DNA of 64,000 nt from Micromonospora sp. NBC_01813 (GTDB lineage Bacteria; Actinomycetota; Actinomycetes; Mycobacteriales; Micromonosporaceae). The notes below the pieces were generated by a model. That model saw nothing but the letters and a program-made list of their open reading frames with translations. It did not search any database and had not been told where the DNA came from. Both the position numbers and the translations under genes were made by a program. Of the stretch, positions 6,320 to 38,955 are shown piece by piece. Where the stretch lies: assembly GCF_035917335.1 (NCBI RefSeq), contig NZ_CP109067.1, forward strand, positions 560,501-624,500, given 5' to 3'. How positions within the stretch are numbered: the first letter of the stretch is position 1; the number at the start of each line of letters is the position of its first letter.

Positions 6320-7585
6320 GTGAACATCGCCGCGATCCCCAGCCCGGCCACCGCGGTCTGGCAGCTTGGTCCTTTGCCCATCCGGGCGTACGCGCTCTGC
6401 ATCGTGCTCGGCATCGTGGTGGCCTGCGCGGTCACCGAGTACCGGCTCCGCCAGCGGGGGGTGCGGCCGTGGGCGGTGCTCGACATCGCCATCTGGGCGG
6501 TGCCGTTCGGCATCCTCGGTGCCCGGCTCTACCACGTGATCAGCTCGCCGCAGGAGTACTTCGGCTCCGGCGGAAACCCGATCGAGGCGCTCTACATCTG
6601 GCAGGGCGGCCTGGGCATCTGGGGCGCGGTCGCCGGTGGCGCCGTCGGCGCCTGGCTGGCCACCCGCCAGCTGGGCCTGCCGCTGAGCGTGGTCGCCGAC
6701 GCGGTCGCTCCCGGCCTGCCGCTGGCACAGGCGGTGGGCCGGCTCGGCAACTGGTTCAACAACGAGCTGTACGGCGGCCCGACGACGCTGCCGTGGGGCC
6801 TGGAGATCCACCAGATGGACCGGGAGAACCCCGGGCAGGCGCTGCGCGACCCGGAGGGCAACCCGGTGCTGGAGCCGGGGCTGTACCACCCGACGTTCCT
6901 GTACGAGCTGATCTGGAACGTCGGCGTCGCGGGCCTGGTGATCCTGGCCGAGCGGCGGTGGAAGCTCGGTGCCGGGCGGGCGTTCGCCGTGTACGTGATG
7001 GGCTACACCGCGGGCCGGTTCTGGATCGAGATGATGCGCACCGATCCGGCGAACGAGATCCTCGGTGCCCGGCTCAACGTGTGGACCTCGGTGCTGGTGT
7101 TCCTCGGTGCCCTGATCTACCTGGTGCGAGTCCGTGGCCCGCAGCAGTTCCTCATCCCGCTGGACGCCGACGGCAAGCCGTTCCCGCCGGACGGGCTGCC
7201 CGGCAGCACCGCCGCCGGCGAGCCGGCCGGCGACGAGCAGCCGACCAGCGGTGTCTCGCAGGTCGACGTGTCGGGCAAGACGAAGGCGGCGGCCGCCGAG
7301 ATGGCCGCCGGGTATCAGGTCGTCAGCGAGGAAGAGTTCCAGGAGTACCTACGCACCGGCACCGCGCCGCCGCCCACTGAGACGAAGTCCGATCCGGTGG
7401 AGCCAACTGCGGCCGACGTCGACGCCGTGGTGGCCGATTCGCCGGAGCCGGTGGCTGATGCCGGCCCGGATGCGGCTGACGCCGACAAGGAAACCGCCGA
7501 CGCTGGCAAGCAGGCCGCTGACGCCGGCCCGGACGAGGCCGACGCCGCAGTGGCCGGCCGGGGTGACGCGAAGACCGACCGCTGA
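6320..7585 (+). CDS. lgt: Phosphatidylglycerol-prolipoprotein diacylglyceryl transferase
   Basis: Lgt attaches diacylglycerol from phosphatidylglycerol to the lipobox cysteine of prelipoproteins in the cytoplasmic membrane. It is 421 aa from the GTG at 6320. About seven hydrophobic segments fill residues 1-270. The signature GRLGNWFNNELYG is present, with YHPTFLYELIWN and the terminal RFWIEMMRTDP. After the enzyme core comes a soluble tail of about 150 residues rich in Ala, Asp and Pro, ending in repeats of the form ADAGPDAADADK. Such tails occur in actinobacterial Lgt but are dispensable-looking. trpA-lgt adjacency is usual in actinobacteria. Confidence 0.95.
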   Translation: MNIAAIPSPATAVWQLGPLPIRAYALCIVLGIVVACAVTEYRLRQRGVRPWAVLDIAIWAVPFGILGARLYHVISSPQEYFGSGGNPIEALYIWQGGLGIWGAVAGGAVGAWLATRQLGLPLSVVADAVAPGLPLAQAVGRLGNWFNNELYGGPTTLPWGLEIHQMDRENPGQALRDPEGNPVLEPGLYHPTFLYELIWNVGVAGLVILAERRWKLGAGRAFAVYVMGYTAGRFWIEMMRTDPANEILGARLNVWTSVLVFLGALIYLVRVRGPQQFLIPLDADGKPFPPDGLPGSTAAGEPAGDEQPTSGVSQVDVSGKTKAAAAEMAAGYQVVSEEEFQEYLRTGTAPPPTETKSDPVEPTAADVDAVVADSPEPVADAGPDAADADKETADAGKQAADAGPDEADAAVAGRGDAKTDR

Positions 7586-23670: not shown

Positions 23671-23677
23671 GGGATGG

Positions 23678-24220
23678 TCACTGCTGGTCGGGGCGGGCGT
23701 CGGCTGCTGTGGTGTCGGGGGTCGGTAGGTCGGCTTCCTCGGCGGGCGCGGGGTCGGCAGGGTCCGGTGGTTGTTCGCGCTCGGCGAGTTCTGCGTGTAG
23801 GGCGATGAGTTCGTTGGTGTCGTTGATCAGGTTGGCGAGGCCGGCGGGGCTGAGTCCTTCATCGTTGACCAGGGCGACGACCAGCATCGTCTGCGCGGCG
23901 ATCGTGTCGGCGGTGGCGGGCAGGGTGTCATGTTGGCCGAGGGCGGCGTACAGGAGGGTTTCGGCGGTGGTGGGTTCGATGCCGGTGCCGGCGGGGTCGA
24001 AGCGTTCGCGGACGGTGGCGACGTAGCGGATGATCGCCGCCGGGTCGCCGGGGCGGAAGCGTCGGTGGACGACGAGGACGAACAGTGCGCTGAGCAGGTC
24101 GAGGTAGTGCTGCCACTGGGTGTCGTCGAAGCGGGCGAGTTGCCGCTCATGTGCGCCGGTCTGGCCGGCGATCAGGTGGGTCAGGGCGGTAGCGGGCGCG
24201 GCGGCGGGTGCGGCAATCAT
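23678..24220 (-). CDS. Hypothetical protein, third gene of a GntR-linked operon
   Basis: A 180-aa mostly helical protein (MIAAPAAAPATALTHLIAG at the start; QWQHYLDLLSALFVLVVHRRF in the middle). The last 30 residues are acidic and Pro-rich. The ATG at 24220 overlaps the stop of the preceding gene. No catalytic motif is seen, and no membrane span beyond one short hydrophobic helix near residue 50. The function is unknown; the tight coupling to two other unknown genes and a GntR gene suggests a plasmid- or element-type accessory operon. Confidence 0.65.
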   Translation of the reverse strand: MIAAPAAAPATALTHLIAGQTGAHERQLARFDDTQWQHYLDLLSALFVLVVHRRFRPGDPAAIIRYVATVRERFDPAGTGIEPTTAETLLYAALGQHDTLPATADTIAAQTMLVVALVNDEGLSPAGLANLINDTNELIALHAELAEREQPPDPADPAPAEEADLPTPDTTAADARPDQQ

Positions 24221-24954
24221 CAGAGCCTCCAGTTTCGGGTGGTGCTGTCCCAGAAGGTCTGCCGGAGGATCTGCCAGTCGGTGCGGAACCGCAGGTGCGC
24301 GCGGCCGGCGGCGACGAGGGCGGCGGCGGTGCCGGCGGCGACGGTCAGGACTTCGGCGCTGGGTCGGGGGTGTCCGGGGCCGGTGGCGATCGCCCGTAGC
24401 CGGGCCAGACGTTGCCGGCGCTGCTGTGGCGGGTCCTGGTCGGTGTCGAGGGCGTCGAGGTAGCGGTCGACGGCGTTGCTGCCGGTGTCGAGGCTGGCGC
24501 CGACCTGGTCGAGGCGGGTCAGTGACTGCCGTAGCCGGGCGGCGGCCCGTTGGGCGTGTCGGTCGTCGCTGCGGTGCAGCCAGTCGGCGGCGGCCAGCAG
24601 CCGCGGTCGGGTGTCGTGGATGGTCGTGGTGGCGTGGCCGGCCTGGTTGCGGGCGGTCCGCAGACCGTGCAGGACGCTGGCGAGGCCGACGGGTCGGCTG
24701 CCGGGCAGGTGTGGTCGGGCGGCGGCGACCGCGTCGTGGACCTCGCCGTACGCCTCCCATGCCTGGTGCAGGGCGTCTTCGTAGCGGTCGACGGTGAGCC
24801 GGGCGTCGGGTGCGAGCGTGTCGGCGTCGCCGAGTTGCTCGGTGACGTGGGTGACGGCTGCCTCCAGGGCGAGGCAGACCGCCCGGAGTGCGCTGATCGT
24901 GTCGGCGGCGACCTGGAGGGCTTCGCCGTCGGCGTGGTACTCCCAGGCGGTCAC
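24220..24954 (-). CDS. Helical hypothetical protein, second gene of the operon
   Basis: A 244-aa protein starting at a GTG (VTAWEYHADGEALQ) that overlaps the previous stop as GTGA. It is almost wholly alpha-helical, with many Ala, Arg and Leu heptad-like runs (ALEAAVTHVTEQLGDADTLA; RAAARLRQSLTRLDQVGASL). One more hydrophobic helix lies near residue 210 (VLTVAAGTAAALVAAG). It looks structural or adaptor-like. No known family is recognised. Confidence 0.65.
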   Translation of the reverse strand: MTAWEYHADGEALQVAADTISALRAVCLALEAAVTHVTEQLGDADTLAPDARLTVDRYEDALHQAWEAYGEVHDAVAAARPHLPGSRPVGLASVLHGLRTARNQAGHATTTIHDTRPRLLAAADWLHRSDDRHAQRAAARLRQSLTRLDQVGASLDTGSNAVDRYLDALDTDQDPPQQRRQRLARLRAIATGPGHPRPSAEVLTVAAGTAAALVAAGRAHLRFRTDWQILRQTFWDSTTRNWRL

Positions 24955-25295
24955 GCGGACCTCCGTAGCCAGGCGAAGCGGGGCCGGTCGGCGTGGGTGT
25001 CGGCGATCCGGTTTGGGTCGAGCAGGGTTGCGCCGGGTCGGCGGAACGGTAGTCGGTGGTAGCGGTGCATCGTGGCTTCGGCTGCGGTCAGGTCCGCGCA
25101 CGGTCCGGGCCGTCCACAGCCGAGACAACACCCGGTGTACGCCGAGGTGGTGTGACGGTCGATGGTGCGTTGCGCCTCGACGACACGGGCGCGGGCGTAC
25201 CGGGTGTAGGAGGTCGCGGAACGCTGGTCGCCGGCCGGGCGCAGCCGGGTGGGTGGTGGTGGGACGGTCGGGGTGGGGCGGGGGTCGGGTGTCAC
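24951..25295 (-). CDS. Cys-containing small hypothetical protein, first gene of the operon
   Basis: A 114-aa protein starting at GTG 25295 with GGGAGG 9 bases upstream. After a Pro-rich N-terminus, the middle contains CCLGCGRPGPCAD, four cysteines in ten residues, which could bind zinc. The C-terminus is basic (RPRFAWLRRSA). It is the promoter-proximal gene of three overlapping genes and is divergent from the GntR gene 261 bases away. Function unknown. Confidence 0.65.
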   Translation of the reverse strand: MTPDPRPTPTVPPPPTRLRPAGDQRSATSYTRYARARVVEAQRTIDRHTTSAYTGCCLGCGRPGPCADLTAAEATMHRYHRLPFRRPGATLLDPNRIADTHADRPRFAWLRRSA

Positions 25296-25465
25296 CGGAC
25301 GTTGCCTCCCGTACGCGTGGAGATGGCACCCGCCGCTGATGCGACTGTTGTCGCAGGTGGCGGGCAGGTTGACGCACCCGGTCGACCGACAGGCGGCGCC
25401 GGCCGACCGGGCTTCTTGCGGGAAACCAGCTCCGGGTTGCTGACCAGGGAGCCGATCGATCGGAG

Positions 25466-25513
25466 CCTACGATAGCTGGGTATCGCAGTCAAGCTATCAC
25501 TTGCGATCGTAGG
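25466..25513. promoter_or_regulatory. Nested palindromes, candidate GntR operator
   Basis: Outer arms CCTACGAT (25466-25473) and ATCGTAGG (25506-25513) enclose inner arms GATAGCT (25471-25477) and AGCTATC (25492-25498). The site lies 44 bases upstream of the GntR start and between it and the divergent three-gene operon, where autoregulation would be expected. Confidence 0.55.
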
Positions 25514-25556
25514 TACCGAGGTGATCAAATGGCAGTGCTGACCAGGGAGTACCGCC

Positions 25557-25790
25557 ATGCCACCGAACGCCAAGTGGGTCGGCCTTGCCGCCCACATCCG
25601 CAAGCAGATCGCGACTGGCGAGCTGTCGCCGGGCGCGAAGCTGCCGTCCACCTCGCAGCTCTGCGCCGAGCATGACGTGTCGGCGATCGTCGTCCGCAAC
25701 GCGATGATCGCGCTCAAGGCTGAGGGCCTGGTCGTCGGCGTACCCGGCGTCGGTGTCTTCGTCGTCGACCCAGACGAGTCCATGACCTGA
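25557..25790 (+). CDS. Minimal GntR-family regulator (DNA-binding domain only)
   Basis: A 77-aa protein that consists of little more than the winged-helix domain of GntR proteins: GLAAHIRKQIATGELSPGAKL, then a recognition-helix region (TSQLCAEHDVSAIVVRNAM) and the wing GLVVGVPGVGVFVV. It lacks the usual ligand-binding domain, so it is probably controlled by level or by a partner. AGGGAG precedes the ATG. Short GntR proteins of this kind are frequent beside actinobacterial conjugative-element genes. It is divergent from the three-gene operon. Confidence 0.85.
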   Translation: MPPNAKWVGLAAHIRKQIATGELSPGAKLPSTSQLCAEHDVSAIVVRNAMIALKAEGLVVGVPGVGVFVVDPDESMT

Positions 25791-25989
25791 CGCATTGATC
25801 TTGTAGGAGAGGTGTCTCGCCAACCGAGTGGGTGGGGCATGCCTCTGATGTCATCACGCTGACTTGATTGCGCTCCGCTCGGCCCCAGGTTTACTAGCAA
25901 ACCGGCATCTCAGGCCGCGCTGGCGGCAGGATCCGCGCCAGTCCGGCTTTCGATTACGGAATACTGGCTGCCTACTATTTGCGGCTAGT

Positions 25990-27507
25990 CTAGTGGGACT
26001 TTTTGATGTTCGCCCAAATCTCGTCCAGGCTCTGCTTTAGTGGTGCTTGATACCATGTGCGGCGATATGATGCGGCCTTCTTGCTGACCGTTTCGATTGG
26101 TACTCCAGATTGAAGGAGCATACAAATCTGAACGACCGCAAAAACGGATTCAGTCAATGGCAATAGGTGACGTTCGTCGAACGAACGCCTTTCCGAACTG
26201 AGATGGGTCAACTCGTTGCGCACCGTTGCGACGACAAACGCCCAACGATCTCTGTCTCCTATGATCGGACGTGTAGCCTCGACGGACCGTGTTGCTAGCT
26301 GATGCAGTCGTTTCCGGAGAGGGGGTTCATTCCCGTACTGGATCTTGCCGAGAAGCCAGTGCTGATGCTCCTCCGGCGTGTTCGACAGGTAGCTATCCAA
26401 CAGATTCTTAAACGCGTCTTCGTTCATATAGTGGCCGCCTATGATCACCTCATGAAACGACTCGGCGGCAAATGTGACGTTGAGGAAGCGATTTTCGGCG
26501 TACATCGGTCTTCCGTGCTTTATGCTCATGAACGAATCGAGGGATCGCTGGAAGCGGTCAGCTGAGTCTAGCCACGCTGCTACCCTGTCGATACCGCCCA
26601 GCGAATGGTAGTCCAGGAGCATTTCGAATCGATGGACCGGTTTGCGTCGTGTCGGTTCGGTGTAGCGCAGCGGTGGTGCAAGAAATTCAATTCGCTGCTG
26701 GCCCCCGTCGGATCCGTCTAGTAGCTTGGCTCGGATTTCAGGGTGGGTCAGTATGAAACCGTCCATTTCTGGATGCTCATCGATGCAGAGGCTCATCAAG
26801 CTCTGAAAGCGACCTACATCTTTTCGTACTACATCAAATTGCTGGGGATCGCCATACTCGACCCTCACCACAGGCCATTGGCGAAAGTTGACGCCGTGGA
26901 TCTCGTTGCCCCCTTGCTCATGCGCATAGTCGATCGTTATTCGACCGCGAGTGAAGTCGCATACCTCGGGTTCGGGGCGGCGATAATTCAGCCTATAGTT
27001 ATAGTCGGGCACGTTGCTCGAACGGTGCTCCCAGTTCCAGTACTCGCTTATGCCGCTGATTCCGATCCAGCTATCCAGGTTGCTGGCAGTGAACTCAACC
27101 GTCTTGAAGGTCGGTGTGTCGCCTTCGAGGTGGGCGCCGACAAAAAGGCGATTGGCTCGGAAGCGGCAGTCGGAGACTCCGGGGCTTCGCTGTGTGCTGC
27201 CTGAAATGAAGGCATCCTCCAGGGTTACTTTCTGTGAGCCAATCCATCCGATGATCCGTCGAATTGATCTGGCCTCCGACAGTGCTAGGTTATCGAACAT
27301 GCCGACGATAGACAGCTCAATTCCGGAAGATGGGTCGAATAAAAGACGTCCCGACAGGGCGTCGTCCGGGTGCCCATCTAGCCAGAACAGTCCCAGCTGG
27401 TCAATTGTCCTCAAGGTATCTCCAGTCCGGAAGGTGGCACGCGAGGGATAACGATAGACGGGAAGCGGAAATCGATCAGAGTACCGGGCTGTTCGTCTCG
27501 AGACCAT
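25990..27507 (-). CDS. apeA: ApeA-like HEPN anti-phage protein
   Basis: A 505-aa protein. The N-terminal half matches the ApeA N-terminal domain pattern: LGLFWLDGHPDDALSGRLLF, then GIELSIVGMF, a GWIGSQKVTLEDAF strand and ANRLFVGAHLEGD. The C-terminal part is a HEPN domain with the nuclease motif R-x4-H in VRNELTHL (R430, H435 from this start). ApeA proteins abort phage infection, by inference through RNA cleavage. Codon use is lower in GC than in neighbours, a sign of transfer. The start is uncertain: ATG 27507 has no clear ribosome site, and a second ATG at 27531 opens a different frame of 20 codons. It is divergent from the Ntn-like gene. Confidence 0.85.
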   Translation of the reverse strand: MVSRRTARYSDRFPLPVYRYPSRATFRTGDTLRTIDQLGLFWLDGHPDDALSGRLLFDPSSGIELSIVGMFDNLALSEARSIRRIIGWIGSQKVTLEDAFISGSTQRSPGVSDCRFRANRLFVGAHLEGDTPTFKTVEFTASNLDSWIGISGISEYWNWEHRSSNVPDYNYRLNYRRPEPEVCDFTRGRITIDYAHEQGGNEIHGVNFRQWPVVRVEYGDPQQFDVVRKDVGRFQSLMSLCIDEHPEMDGFILTHPEIRAKLLDGSDGGQQRIEFLAPPLRYTEPTRRKPVHRFEMLLDYHSLGGIDRVAAWLDSADRFQRSLDSFMSIKHGRPMYAENRFLNVTFAAESFHEVIIGGHYMNEDAFKNLLDSYLSNTPEEHQHWLLGKIQYGNEPPLRKRLHQLATRSVEATRPIIGDRDRWAFVVATVRNELTHLSSERRSFDERHLLPLTESVFAVVQICMLLQSGVPIETVSKKAASYRRTWYQAPLKQSLDEIWANIKKSH

Positions 27508-27953
27508 CGTCCGTTTGTTCGTTATTGGGATCAGACATTGGCGCCATGGCAGGGCTCCGCTGCCGGTGATCCGTGACCGCCTCCGGGGTGCTGATGCCCC
27601 ATTTCGACGAGCCAGGCATGCGTGTCGAGGCCGGCTGGCCTGGCTGCACTCCGCTTTGCGCACGACATGACCTATGCGGCAGGATCAGTCGTTCGCGGCC
27701 CTGCTGATGATCCGCATTGATCGTGATCGAGGCGACTAATGGCCGCAACGGGTGGGCTATCGACGCAGAGAAGGGAAAATCGCCCGGGAGTGGCTGACCG
27801 CCGAAGCGGTCAGCCACCAAAGACCCGTGGCACCGCAGCGGTTGGACTCGCCGCAGTGGGCACCTCGCCCCTCCCATGTGCTAGCGGGAGACCCGGGAGT
27901 TGCGGTAACAAGTATGGTGTCGCAGTAGGCTGAGGTCAAGGGCAGGGGGCGGA
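27508..27953. other. Divergent intergenic region of the HEPN/Ntn-like pair
   Basis: 446 bases with no convincing gene. It should carry promoters for both divergent genes. GC is mixed. A TATGGT box at 27913-27918 lies upstream of the plus-strand gene. No clear inverted repeat stands out. Confidence 0.4.
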
Positions 27954-28754
27954 ATGACGAGCTTGGTGGCGTGGGTTGGAGTGGATTCGCGCTATCCCGC
28001 AGCTTTGTATATTGCCACCGATAGTCGTGTCACCTGGCCGCATCATGGCGGAACATACGATCATGCTCGAAAGACTTTTGTGGCCCGCAATTCACCAGAT
28101 ATCTGTGGCTATGTTGGCGACGTCCTATTCCCGGCACTGCTACTTCCGACAGTCGTTGAGCTCTATGACGTCAATCCACGCCTCGACGACCTGTTAATCG
28201 AGCGTCAGAATCGATTCTTTTCAATAGTGTGCGGAAGCTGGAATGGCTTACCCCAGCAGGAGCGGAGAGATGTAGTGATCGTTCATGGCACAAGAGCTGG
28301 AACAGGTGTTGACGGAGAATTCGGTTTGCAAGTTCTGTCGTATGACCGAGGGGCGGGATGGTGTCAAGAGCGCCTTGCAATGCCGACTGGCAGTGAAACA
28401 CTGGCTATTCTAGGAAGCGGCTCCAGGGTCCAGCGCAACTCACATCTTGCTTGGCAATCCTCCGATTCGGCAAACACGAGTCGGTCTGCCTTCAGCGCGT
28501 TCTGCGAAGGGCTTCGCGAGAATCTCGACCCGAGAAGTGGCGGGGCTCCGCAGCTTGTTGGACTGTATCGACAGGGTAATGGCCGCCTCTTCGGGGTATC
28601 TTGGCGCGATCAAAACTACGTGAGTGGTACACACGTATCCCAAGGTGTCGCTCAAGATCTTGACGGCATCGAATGGCGGGATCCGCTTTTCCAGCGAACT
28701 TCACCTGGACACAAACTCCTACCTGGTGCGCAGCGGCACTCCAATCGACGATAG
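27954..28754 (+). CDS. Putative proteasome-like Ntn hydrolase in a defence context
   Basis: A 266-aa protein. The first 40 residues resemble a 20S proteasome beta subunit: after Met removal the chain begins with Thr, a hydrophobic strand (SLVAWVGVD), then YIATDSRVTW with D23 and R25, and K40 in ARKTF. In proteasomes T1, D17 and K33 form the active site with nearly the same spacing. A glycine-rich strand, ICGYVGDVLFPALLL, follows. The ATG has GGGCAGGGGG upstream. GC is clearly below that of neighbours. No exact family is recognised, so the Ntn call is an inference from the pattern. It is divergent from the ApeA-like gene. Confidence 0.55.
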   Translation: MTSLVAWVGVDSRYPAALYIATDSRVTWPHHGGTYDHARKTFVARNSPDICGYVGDVLFPALLLPTVVELYDVNPRLDDLLIERQNRFFSIVCGSWNGLPQQERRDVVIVHGTRAGTGVDGEFGLQVLSYDRGAGWCQERLAMPTGSETLAILGSGSRVQRNSHLAWQSSDSANTSRSAFSAFCEGLRENLDPRSGGAPQLVGLYRQGNGRLFGVSWRDQNYVSGTHVSQGVAQDLDGIEWRDPLFQRTSPGHKLLPGAQRHSNRR

Positions 28755-28845
28755 CGGCACGTCCGTCGCCGATGCGTAGTCGTCGTTGGACGGAGGTGGA
28801 CGGTAGATTTGAACAAGGTAGCTCAATTTAGGCTGGTCAAGTTAG

Positions 28846-29547
28846 CTATAAGTTGGACATGTACCCCTTCAGGCTTTTCGTGGCCTGGTGGGTGAGTACG
28901 GCGGCTTCCTCGATGTTGGAGCGGGACAGCTCAGCCCAGGTGTAGATCTCCTGCGTACGGTCCTGCCGGCCGCCGGCAAGCAGCTGCGCCAGGCTGAGCT
29001 GGCTCGCCCGCATCGCGTTGGCCACGTTCGCCAGCTTGGCCTGCTGGGTTTCGATCTCTTCGAGTATCTGCCGGAGCCGCCCGATGTATCCGCCAGCTGC
29101 CACTGCCTCCGAGTCGGCTCGGGGTTGGGTCAGCCGACGAGGCCGGTGTGGTGGTGCACGTCGCGGCTCTCGTCTTGCCGGGTCGATCGCTCGAAGCACT
29201 CGCTTCGGCTCACCCGTACCCGGAATCGCTGTTGGTGGCTTGCCGCCCGACTGCGCCTGCCTGCCCACTTCGGCCTTCCGGCTCATCAAGCGGTCCACGG
29301 CCGTGCCCACGGCGGACTTGCCCAGGACCCCGAGCATTGCGCCCGCGATCGCGCCACCGGTCGCGGCTGTCGACGGCGGCACGGGGAGACCGGCCTTCGT
29401 CGAGGCCAGCCCCAGCAACATGCCGACGGCGGCACCGCCCAGCTCAGCCAACTTGCCGAGTGACTCCTTCGACAACTCTCGGCGGAACTGCTGGCCATAG
29501 GTCTCGGCGTGCTGCTGGCCCTTGCGCTGCTTCCGGCCGTACCTCAT
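28846..29547 (-). CDS. Gly-rich membrane protein with C-terminal helical domain
   Basis: A 233-aa protein. The N-terminus is basic (MRYGRKQRKGQQ). Residues 35-85 contain two Gly/Ala-rich hydrophobic helices (LGGAAVGMLLGLAS; GGAIAGAMLGVLG), like glycine-zipper membrane hairpins. A basic Pro-rich linker leads to a C-terminal helical domain of about 80 residues ending in LTHQATKSLKGYMSNL. That domain resembles the whole of the small protein encoded two genes upstream. The start overlaps the preceding stop (ATGA). Function unknown; membrane insertion is plausible. Confidence 0.7.
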   Translation of the reverse strand: MRYGRKQRKGQQHAETYGQQFRRELSKESLGKLAELGGAAVGMLLGLASTKAGLPVPPSTAATGGAIAGAMLGVLGKSAVGTAVDRLMSRKAEVGRQAQSGGKPPTAIPGTGEPKRVLRAIDPARREPRRAPPHRPRRLTQPRADSEAVAAGGYIGRLRQILEEIETQQAKLANVANAMRASQLSLAQLLAGGRQDRTQEIYTWAELSRSNIEEAAVLTHQATKSLKGYMSNL

Positions 29548-30182
29548 GTCTGGACGACCGGGTCAAAGAAGGCGCATCCGGTGACGACCATCATCGGAAG
29601 GTTGATCGCTACGTCGCGGGCCACCCCCGCCGCCGTCAACTCCAGGAGCTTCTCGCCGGCGGCTTCCTCCTCCGACTGGTCGGCGTAGAAGGCGCACGCG
29701 TCCCACAAGTTGGCGTGCAGGAAGGCGTACGACCATTGGCTGTAGACCTGGATCGGCACCGCGACCGCTGCCTTGTCGCCGATGCCGATGCGATGCAGGT
29801 CGGGTTCCTCGGGTGTTGTGCCCAGGCCTTGGGCGAGGGGGAGCAGTTTGTGGCGGCTGAAGACTGGTTGCAGGTCGCCGTCGGGGTCGAACTCGACGAG
29901 TAGGCCGCGGGCGATGAGGTCGTCGACGTAGCGTGCGGCCTGTGGCTCCGGCTTCGGGGCGGTTTCCAGCATGCGTACGAGGGAATTGCGGTTGACGGTG
30001 AGCTTCGCGTGCTGGTCCGGGTAGAGGAAGGCGGCGGCCCAGACGGCGGCCTCGGTTTCGGTCAGCTCGACCAGGTCGTCACCGAGATGCACCTCGTAGC
30101 ACTCCGGGGTCGGGTCCGGCGGGCGGACGTACCGGTAGCGGGGACCCATGCTCAGCCCGGCGGGCACGATCACAGTCGACAT
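29544..30182 (-). CDS. Hypothetical protein with possible winged-helix segment
   Basis: A 212-aa protein. Residues 35-105 look like a small winged-helix fold (LTETEAAVWAAAFLYPDQHA, a helix with NRNSLVRMLE, then YVDDLIARGLLVEFDPDGD). The C-terminal half is a mix of strands and helices with no motif I know. It lies in the middle of a three-gene operon, between the small helical protein and the Gly-rich membrane protein. It might be a regulator or an adaptor. Confidence 0.65.
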   Translation of the reverse strand: MSTVIVPAGLSMGPRYRYVRPPDPTPECYEVHLGDDLVELTETEAAVWAAAFLYPDQHAKLTVNRNSLVRMLETAPKPEPQAARYVDDLIARGLLVEFDPDGDLQPVFSRHKLLPLAQGLGTTPEEPDLHRIGIGDKAAVAVPIQVYSQWSYAFLHANLWDACAFYADQSEEEAAGEKLLELTAAGVARDVAINLPMMVVTGCAFFDPVVQT

Positions 30183-30202
30183 CAGGTGATCCTCCCAGCC
30201 GG

Positions 30203-30463
30203 TCAGAAGCTCGCGGCGTAGCCACGGCTGGACTCGATCGCGCTCTGCGTCAGCGCGGCAGCCTCGGCCAGTTTCTGCTTCGCCTGCTCGACCTTGGCGA
30301 TCGTCTCGGACACCTGCGAGTGGCTGGACCCGCTGGTGATGCCGCGCAGCGCTGCCGTACTGCGGTCGAGGGCTTCCGCGCTGGCCCGGATCGCGCCGAC
30401 CTGCTGGCCGACCTCGTCACCGAACCGGGCGACGCCCGCCTTGACCTCTTCAACCGAACTCAC
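30203..30463 (-). CDS. Small helical protein (DUF6244-like)
   Basis: An 86-aa all-helical protein from the GTG at 30463, which has GGAGGA 7 bases upstream; a longer upstream frame is unlikely. It begins VSSVEEVKAGVARFGDEVG and ends ALTQSAIESSRGYAASF. The layout, two long helices around a Gly/Ser turn, recalls WXG100-size proteins and the DUF6244 group of Micromonosporaceae. Its C-terminal half resembles the C-terminal domain of the Gly-rich membrane protein in the same operon. First gene of the operon. Confidence 0.7.
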   Translation of the reverse strand: MSSVEEVKAGVARFGDEVGQQVGAIRASAEALDRSTAALRGITSGSSHSQVSETIAKVEQAKQKLAEAAALTQSAIESSRGYAASF

Positions 30464-31032
30464 GCCGGCATCCTCCCCATCGGACCAACATGGCAGCCTC
30501 GACGGTACCCTCACCCGGCCAACCGGACCCACCGAGCCGCCTGCCGGCTCCTGCTCGATGATGGTCCCGGTCCGCACCGGCGCGTCCAACGCCGGCAGCG
30601 AAGGCGGCAATTCTTGGTTCCCGGACCACAACACCACCCGGCTGAATACGAAGAACCGGTTAACGTCCCGCGTCATACCGACAAGAAGGCAAGGACTCGG
30701 TGTGACACTCGGGTGCCCTGCGCCGTTCGCAGTGTTTCGGCGCGACAGATCTGTTCTGAATCAACCTGCAAGATCGGTGCGACCTTGAGATCGAGAAGAA
30801 CGCGCTGGCCACGCCTTTGGCAAGATCCAATCGCGCCGGGCGGCGTGCGAGAGTGCAGCAGCGAGGCGGTCGGCAAGATCAGCCACGAAACACATATCCG
30901 TATTCCGGCGACTCGTCACGGATTCGTCATGGCGGTAATCACAGTGTGTGCACAGTGGCCTGATCCTTAACGAGCGCATGCGAGCATCGAAGCACGTCAT
31001 GTGGGTATGGGCATTGGGTGGTTGGGGGGCGT
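30464..31032. other. Divergent intergenic region before the STAND regulator
   Basis: 569 bases without a gene I can support; open frames on the plus strand lack recognisable content or a start site. It must hold the divergent promoters of the minus-strand operon and the XRE-STAND gene. No strong inverted repeat was found. Confidence 0.4.
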
Positions 31033-38025: not shown

Positions 38026-38955
38026 TCAGTGCTTGAAGACCGCGTCGGTGTGCCATTCGAGCAGGTCGTGGTCGGGGCGGCGGGCCTTCTGCTCGGGGAG
38101 GGAGATCTGGGTGCCGGCGCGGGCGTAGAACTGTTCGCCGTTGCCGAAGTCGTCGCGCAGGCGTCGGCTGACGAGCAGCCGGTACTTCGGGTCGACGCCC
38201 AGGTAGCCCTGGTCGAAGAGGATGTGCACGTCGGCCCGCAGCAGCATGCCGTTGTCGATGCGGTGCTCGCCGCCGGCGGCCACCGGGCGGATGTGCGCCG
38301 CCTGCAGCGCCGGCCGCAGCTTGCTGTCGGTGATCGCGCAGCGCCGGGAGTACGTATCCAGGACGACCGCCTTGAACGACTGCTGCCCCAGGCGCTGTGG
38401 TCGGAGCCGGGGGTCGCCGAACACCGGACCCGGCCGGTGCCAGGAGCCTTCCGGGTCGACGCGGACCTCGCCGCCGAGCAGGAGTTTCGTCAACTGCTCG
38501 AAGTAGTCGAAGAACTTCCCAGACGACAGGTCGTAGGTCTTGCCCTGGGTGAGGTTCGACGGGAACTCCGGCGGCGGCTCCGGCTGCCGGTCGGCGGGGA
38601 AGAAGACGGTGTCGCGGATGAAGATGCAGCCGATCACCGGGTCCTCGCCGGGGCCGATCGGGTCCTTGCGGTACTTGCCGATGTCGCGGGCCATGTCGGC
38701 GAGGGACCCCGCGCCGTTGGCCTCCCCGAACAGCCCCCACGCTTCCGAGAGCCGCAGCTTCGCGAAGCCGCTGAAGAAGCCGCCGCCGACGATCCGGTTG
38801 TGCGGATAGCGACTCTTGAAGAAGAACGGCTCGCCGGGAGTGAGGGTCTTGAAGCTGCCGCCGCCGGGCCGCCAGAAGTTGACCTCGTTGATCTGCGGCC
38901 GTGCGGCGAGAAAGCCACGCCACTCGCCGTCGGTGACCCCCACGAACGCCTTCAC
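38026..38955 (-). CDS. HNH endonuclease with N-terminal EVE/PUA-like domain
   Basis: A 309-aa protein from a GTG at 38955. The N-terminal half (FVGVTDGEWRGFLAARPQ, EVNFWRPGG, FFFKSRYPHNRIVGGGFF) looks like a PUA/EVE-type base-binding domain. The C-terminal HNH_2 domain has YSRRCAITDSKL, AAHIRPVAAGGEH with a His pair and DNGMLLRADVHILFDQG. This layout suits a nuclease that reads modified bases or cleaves foreign DNA. The domain calls are by pattern; substrate unknown. Confidence 0.82.
   Translation of the reverse strand: MKAFVGVTDGEWRGFLAARPQINEVNFWRPGGGSFKTLTPGEPFFFKSRYPHNRIVGGGFFSGFAKLRLSEAWGLFGEANGAGSLADMARDIGKYRKDPIGPGEDPVIGCIFIRDTVFFPADRQPEPPPEFPSNLTQGKTYDLSSGKFFDYFEQLTKLLLGGEVRVDPEGSWHRPGPVFGDPRLRPQRLGQQSFKAVVLDTYSRRCAITDSKLRPALQAAHIRPVAAGGEHRIDNGMLLRADVHILFDQGYLGVDPKYRLLVSRRLRDDFGNGEQFYARAGTQISLPEQKARRPDHDLLEWHTDAVFKH

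Follow-up and report, generated by a model that had tools for sequence, protein, structure and literature searches.

Two divergent genes in a low-GC segment

We analyzed a 64-kb stretch of the genome of Micromonospora sp. NBC_01813 (G000:C1:560501-624500 within a 7.63-Mb single-contig genome; hereafter the window, with positions counted from its first base), in which the gene of an ApeA-type protein lies beside that of a predicted proteasome-like N-terminal-nucleophile (Ntn) hydrolase, called the enzyme below. The two open reading frames (ORFs) are divergent and are separated by a gap of 290 bases; the minus-strand ORF encodes ApeA (557 amino acids, aa) and the plus-strand ORF encodes the enzyme (266 aa; coordinates in Table 1). 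Their guanine-plus-cytosine (GC) contents are 55.5% and 55.1%, compared with a mean of 70.6% in the window, and the segment that holds them is practically the 3 kb of lowest GC within the window. Thus, a preliminary description of this DNA, which had noted two facing genes of lower GC than their surroundings, was accurate on both points.

That description had further called the minus-strand product an ApeA-type protein with N-terminal fold motifs and a HEPN R-x4-H motif, and the family searches bore this out. The protein matched the Pfam families PF18862 ApeA_NTD1 (E = 5.7e-31, 108.4 bits; cut-off 25.5) and PF18739 HEPN_Apea (E = 6.9e-19, 69.1 bits; cut-off 24.4), and the PADLOC models PDC-S58 (E = 7.4e-59) and Cas13-ApeA (E = 9.5e-23). 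It shares ApeA_NTD1, HEPN_Apea and the R-x4-H motif with the ApeA systems that PADLOC labels Cas13-ApeA and PDC-S58, and we noticed no important difference from them. ApeA is a stand-alone anti-phage gene, with which the PADLOC label agrees. Judged from its sequence, the protein is a regular ApeA, a divergent member that is ordinary in itself. The start listed for the ORF is GTG, and a later start is possible. A 2013 paper describes the ApeA-NTD1-HEPN fusion architecture (PMC3710099). The same genome carries a second ApeA-like gene (G000:C1:4649246-4650670, locus L076), whose product is 28% identical to the ApeA of the window.

Predicted fold, active site and distribution of the enzyme

The structure of the enzyme was predicted from 60 sequences with a mean predicted local distance difference test score of 96.4 and a predicted template modeling score of 0.93. 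When the model was compared with PDB using Foldseek, it matched 668 chains at E <= 0.001. The best matches were 20S proteasome subunits, headed by a Mycobacterium tuberculosis 20S chain (E = 3.5e-8; TM score 0.54 over the query). The helices of the model follow in proteasome order (H1, residues 58-73; H2, 81-96; H3, 157-168; H4, 176-189), the linkers at residues 97-106 (approximately 10 residues) and 169-175 (approximately seven) are short, and only a six-residue helix (230-235) follows H4. The preliminary description had found the first 40 residues similar to a proteasome beta subunit and had proposed a comparison of the fold with 20S beta subunits; in the model the proteasome fold spans the whole chain, which is of the Ntn type and groups with 20S subunits.

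To examine conservation, we used an alignment of 63 rows, comprising 62 of 72 loci that encode the enzyme or its relatives, plus the window protein. The alignment omits L001 (the window itself), the partial or truncated L004, L053, L065, L067, L068 and L071, and the near-duplicates L027, L050 and L060. The predicted nucleophile, the residues at the positions of proteasome Asp17, Lys33 and Gly47, and two glycine-containing motifs are given with their conservation in Table 1. Residue 195, within the second motif, is C in 24 rows, S in 21, T in 10 and V in 8. Conservation was highest in the active-site stretches, with a mean information of 3.3-3.4 bits at residues 15-28, 49-60 and 192-205. We take the D-x-x-S-G-G-x-P-Q motif to resemble D166/S169-G-G of proteasome beta subunits. 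Because the threonine directly follows the start methionine, removal of the methionine would by itself free the nucleophile. The model and the conserved active site almost certainly identify the enzyme as a proteasome-type Ntn hydrolase. The enzyme is predicted to be catalytically active, most likely as a threonine peptidase or amidase, and may form a homo-oligomer, given that H1-H4 are present in the model.

At the sequence level, the enzyme had no match above cut-off to any Pfam, NCBIfam or PADLOC family. A match to DUF6929 (E = 0.0081) lay under the cut-off of that family and was rejected. A phmmer search of PDB gave no meaningful match (best E = 0.5), the family profile matched no PDB sequence at E <= 10, and the Pfam proteasome family was absent from the 25 families matched by any of the 63 members at E <= 1. 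The enzyme shares with 20S beta, HslV, Anbu and BPH the predicted fold, the Thr1-Asp-Lys-Gly positions and helices H1-H4, but differs from them in having neither a Pfam proteasome match nor a PDB sequence match, in its G-G-x-P-Q and C-terminal A-Q elements, and in lacking a regular neighboring ATPase or other partner. Further, the long C-terminal helix H5 of Anbu (coiled coil) is missing from the model.

The superfamily and many uncharacterized members of it are already known (PMC8665760): Fuchs, Alva and Lupas (2021) cataloged 22 uncharacterized proteasome homologs. The features of a proteasome-like protein in their sense, a beta core with H1-H4 (here predicted) and equivalents of Thr1/Ser1-Asp17-Lys33-Gly47, were found in the enzyme, which likewise belongs to the superfamily, has no known function and is scattered in distribution. 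In that catalog, PMI-3 and PMI-4 have long insertions after H1/H2, and PMI-2 to PMI-6 have them between H3 and H4. When our model is set against this published description, insertions at neither place are present. Judged by eye, the phylum spread of PMI-4 in Table 1 of that study is closest to that of the enzyme.

The enzyme is rare in the taxa around the window's genome: it occurred once among 298 genomes of the order and once among 396 of the phylum, twice among 350 of the family (including a weak match to the sister family described below) and three times among 345 of the class (including a weak sister match and one with the Frankia sequence). It was not found in the six other listed genomes of the genus. 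A scan of GTDB representatives gave at least 67 loci in 14 named phyla plus one unassigned; many of these loci come from metagenome bins, which may carry incorrect organism names. An Arcobacter plasmid copy adds Campylobacterota to this range. Among 72,556 plasmid records, 5 carried the enzyme when the window protein was the query and 7 when another member was. Two member queries found no relative in 50,697 phage records, and two IMG/VR scans found none; a viral origin of the enzyme is thus unsupported. Viral proteins of the same fold (10 at E <= 0.001) were only 10-16% identical to the enzyme. A search of Escherichia coli with one Pseudomonas member detected no DNA relative of the main family, that is, the family of the enzyme. 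A Pseudomonas aeruginosa plasmid copy (L004:10031-10603), located after an IS1182 transposase gene, is missing the N-terminal portion.

Weak profile matches in two actinobacteria (L118:937-1791, minus strand, and L120 1372-2379, plus strand) opened up a sister family. Its members (L118, L120 and plasmid copies) share with the enzyme the MT start, DSR, D...K, G and GG.PQ, but have very low identity to the main family. The main-family profile scored 27-52 bits on 7/7 sister sequences tried (one a fragment), whereas BLASTP between two members at one shared plasmid site gave E 0.054 only. The sister family was present in 8 of the 72,556 plasmid records and in none of the 50,697 phage records. Among 5,426 complete E. 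coli genomes, 126 had a copy, always on the chromosome and at least 99% identical. The copy of E. coli KE47 (L122:9300-10174, minus strand) is broken by a stop and has an integrase gene nearby; a Klebsiella plasmid copy (L123:3963-8834) comes after a GTPase gene and a LeoA/HP0731 dynamin-like GTPase gene. On two Agrobacterium plasmids, a main-family gene and a sister-family gene each follow the same integrase gene (90% identical) and RHE_PE00001 gene (78%), as if this slot accepted either family.

Relation to ApeA, the variable site and neighboring genes

The preliminary description had proposed that the pair forms an undescribed two-gene defence module in which the protease processes, activates or senses for ApeA. 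When the ApeA of the window was used as a tblastn query, no match was obtained at any of the 71 other enzyme loci (L002-L072), whose available flanks range from almost nothing to 10 kb. Across all loci compared, nothing matched below E 0.5 except the copies of the window itself, L076 and two ApeA loci of the phylum. HEPN_Apea occurred anywhere in the genome in just 3 of the 50 enzyme-bearing genomes searched (of 67 loci). ApeA was present in three of the 396 phylum genomes, and the enzyme only in the window's own. The 11 plasmid records bearing ApeA shared no member with the 5 or 7 bearing the enzyme, and L076 has no enzyme gene alongside. The module fails the check that had been proposed for it, recurrent pairing, and no support was found for processing or activation of ApeA. 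Of the earlier interpretation, the HEPN assignment, the threonine-type Ntn fold and an accessory, partly defence-island setting stood, whereas recurrent pairing did not. The two genes are very probably independent cargo rather than a module, and their proximity looks like co-location at a hotspot.

The site itself is variable. In two genomes of the same genus, G756 and G780, the sequences that flank the region (window to 21045 and from approximately 30905) are 1.5 and 5.25 kb apart, respectively, compared with 9.9 kb in the window, and other genes lie inside. In this sense, the placement of the pair between accessory operons, as first described, holds. Among the matches listed for 61 genomes of the family, there was no DNA match to window 25783-28834, and we read this segment as a cargo slot. 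Just past the right flank, G780 has the left block (window 23801-25778) and the right block (28835-30508), and between them are transposase-like ORFs (by reading) and ORFs of 127 and 326 aa. The left block ends with a segment of approximately 245 bp (window 25533-25782), which has two further copies in G780 (L117:3419-3670 and 6544-6780) and may mark cassette borders. With two defence-type cargos in one slot, a shared function is not needed.

Other repeats were observed in this region. The 245-bp segment precedes different cargo in G780 and was read as part of a GntR-type regulator gene. Window 23676-25779 recurs with 90% identity at G000:C1:2643833-2645942, and both G756 and G780 hold partial copies of it. 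A 309-aa ORF at window 38026-38955 (minus strand), read as an HNH-type nuclease, has a 93% identical copy in G780 directly after the right block.

We clustered the neighbors in 73 neighborhoods, namely those of 72 loci (of which L001 is the gene of the window itself) and of the window segment, and found no recurring partner of the enzyme. The largest cluster comprised six genes from six loci, two of them read as integrases, and the next comprised four genes from four loci, three read as AAA-type ATPases. Since no ATPase is a regular neighbor (the commonest AAA-type cluster reaches 4 of the 73), the enzyme would act without a dedicated unfoldase. Further, ORFs within 60 bp, upstream or downstream, showed no mutual match at E <= 0.1 that would indicate an operon partner. 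The enzyme belongs to a sparse family, spread over about 15 bacterial phyla, that has no fixed partner.

In 28 genomes, the five genes closest to that of the enzyme and encoding 100 aa or more were set against five taken from an arbitrary region elsewhere in the genome. Of 40 control regions requested, 28 remained, since 10 were nonexistent, one was only 320 bases long and another, of 9.9 kb, was omitted. The three longest control proteins were dropped (137 to 134); one control region had only two proteins, and one case locus only four. At E <= 1e-8, PADLOC models numbered 265 for the 139 flank proteins and 45 for the 134 controls, a count of models, not proteins, so that the size of the defence excess is uncertain. 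Ten flank proteins, nine from the 139-protein set and picked mostly by length, were scanned directly, and nine matched PADLOC (Table 1), the exception being one in L062. Judged from these matches, the enzyme sometimes lies near Hachiman, Septu, DSR1, reverse-transcriptase, restriction or Cas3-like genes. Ten neighbors of the three relatives from actinobacteria that are closest in the tree were compared with Pfam. They included the Cas3-like helicase of L048, a CHAT protein, two helix-turn-helix proteins, one protein with DUF5677 and one that matched HEAT below threshold; four had no Pfam match. Mobile families in the 139 flank proteins comprised integrases (4), DDE_Tnp_1 transposases (3) and resolvases (2), all absent among the 25 of 173 control families listed, which mostly look housekeeping. 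The mobile and defence genes of the flanks place the enzyme in a mobile, partly defence-rich gene pool.

Table 1. Features of the window (positions in window coordinates unless a locus is named) and of other loci encoding the enzyme or its relatives
Feature	Position	Strand	Remarks
Left accessory block	23801..25782		79% identical in G780, where other cargo follows
Cargo segment	25783..28834		56.4% GC; holds only the two genes
ApeA-type protein	25990..27663	-	ApeA_NTD1 residues 91-357, HEPN_Apea 394-522
HEPN R-x4-H motif, RNELTH	26203..26220	-	ApeA residues 482-487
Proteasome-like Ntn hydrolase (predicted), 266 aa	27954..28754	+	Model, Foldseek, active-site conservation
Thr2 codon, predicted nucleophile (Thr1 once Met is removed)	27957..27959	+	T 61, S 2 of 63
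Asp23 codon, proteasome Asp17 position	28020..28022	+	D 61, E 2 of 63
Lys40 codon, Lys33 position	28071..28073	+	K 63/63
Gly55 codon, oxyanion-hole Gly47 position	28116..28118	+	G 63/63
GSG motif, residues 154-156	28413..28421	+	G154 62, G156 63; middle S 47, T 15, K 1 of 63
D-x-x-S-G-G-x-P-Q motif, residues 192-200	28527..28553	+	D192 52, G196 63, G197 62, P199 62, Q200 63 of 63
Right accessory block	28835..30508	-	ORFs of 233 and 212 aa plus part of another ORF; 92% identical in G780
Shared Agrobacterium slot	L002:7281-10816 and L126:5469-8849		Main vs sister gene
L059 flanks			HamA, HamB, SoFic, Tmn; direct PADLOC scan
L040 flank			Dsr1; direct PADLOC scan
L068 flank			PtuA; direct PADLOC scan
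L034 flank			Defence-type reverse transcriptase; direct PADLOC scan
L067 flank			Type I restriction subunit; direct PADLOC scan
L048 flank			Cas3-like helicase; direct PADLOC scan

Possible function and rival explanations

The best explanation overall, and one we consider reasonably probable, is that ApeA and the enzyme, each an independent cargo of one gene, occupy the same slot of a variable accessory region. The defence-island neighborhoods suggest that the enzyme may have its own role in defence, for which the chances seem about even. More tentatively, and at somewhat less than even chances, the enzyme could on its own constitute an antiviral system, with a stand-alone threonine hydrolase of proteasome-like type as the effector, found in defence islands of about 15 phyla, with no dedicated ATPase and with a sister family in mobile, integrase-associated loci. 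Removal of the start methionine would expose Thr1, which with Asp23, Lys40 and the oxyanion Gly55 would form an N-terminal-nucleophile site that cuts a peptide or amide bond. The enzyme would be held off until infection and would then cleave a specific protein or peptide, acting without a dedicated ATPase or unfoldase.

Several findings weigh against these proposals. The count of PADLOC models is inflated, because nine case proteins, chosen mostly by length, account for up to 127 model hits, and the controls also matched type I methyltransferase, HerA, PDC-S71, PDC-M37B and DolB. Six neighbors of three plasmid copies had no PADLOC match at E <= 1, and several neighbors of the enzyme are housekeeping-like (RmuC-, PP2C-, peptidase- and aminopeptidase-like, by reading). 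Mobile genes cluster with defence genes anyway, so that residence in islands does not prove a defence role. On an Arcobacter plasmid (L005:8677-10774), 31 bp separate the enzyme gene from the end of a HEPN_Toprim_N gene upstream, and on a Pseudomonas plasmid 33 bp separate it from the gene of an unnamed 519-aa protein; with such close same-strand genes upstream at some loci, certain copies may belong to local operons. Conservation is low in helices H2 and H3 of the ring interface (1.5 and 1.4 bits), which rank with the least conserved parts of the enzyme, and a conserved ring is therefore not favored. Further, in the tree of the enzyme, built by a quick method and with stars on 20 of 57 inner branches, members mostly group by phylum, with 19 phylum changes compared with a minimum of 13 and a mean of 36.9 in shuffles. 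With a tree of this form and some apparent transfers, we do not claim rampant recent transfer.

The main rival of this explanation is a general island gene with another job: the enzyme would be mobile cargo that clears damaged or toxic proteins or cuts a small amide, and would meet defence genes through the islands. Integrases and transposases are frequent nearby, the neighbors of plasmid copies lack PADLOC matches, many neighbors are not defence genes, and ATPase-free clearance has been raised as a role for such homologs (PMC8665760). The nearest five genes nevertheless include strong matches to several unrelated defence systems and carry more PADLOC models than controls from the same genomes, and we regard this rival as possible, though less likely than not. 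It is improbable that the enzyme keeps neighboring toxic effectors of defence in check, or resets them, through degradation of the effectors or of what regulates them, irrespective of which effector lies beside it. The effectors do vary beside a constant protease-like protein, as this would predict, but several loci have no recognized adjacent effector, and the effectors that are nearby come from unrelated systems. Least of all do we favor the two-gene module, which is very unlikely in view of the pairing data above, despite the divergent arrangement in one low-GC segment that is missing at the site in two genomes of the genus, and despite both genes being of kinds met near defence genes.

Independent cargo thus remains our preferred explanation, and what is new is an apparently undescribed context for an uncharacterized proteasome homolog. 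No genomic context suggesting a specific function was reported for the uncharacterized homologs (PMC8665760); the defence-island setting therefore appears new, as far as the literature was scanned. No paper on a proteasome-like defence gene appeared in the literature listed, which comprised titles and abstract openings and covered few subscription journals. If the proposed defence role is true, one uncharacterized proteasome homolog would gain a testable function, and a proteasome-type threonine hydrolase would join the antiviral effectors of bacteria. It would also bear on the way in which proteasome subunits functioned before their association with ATPases.

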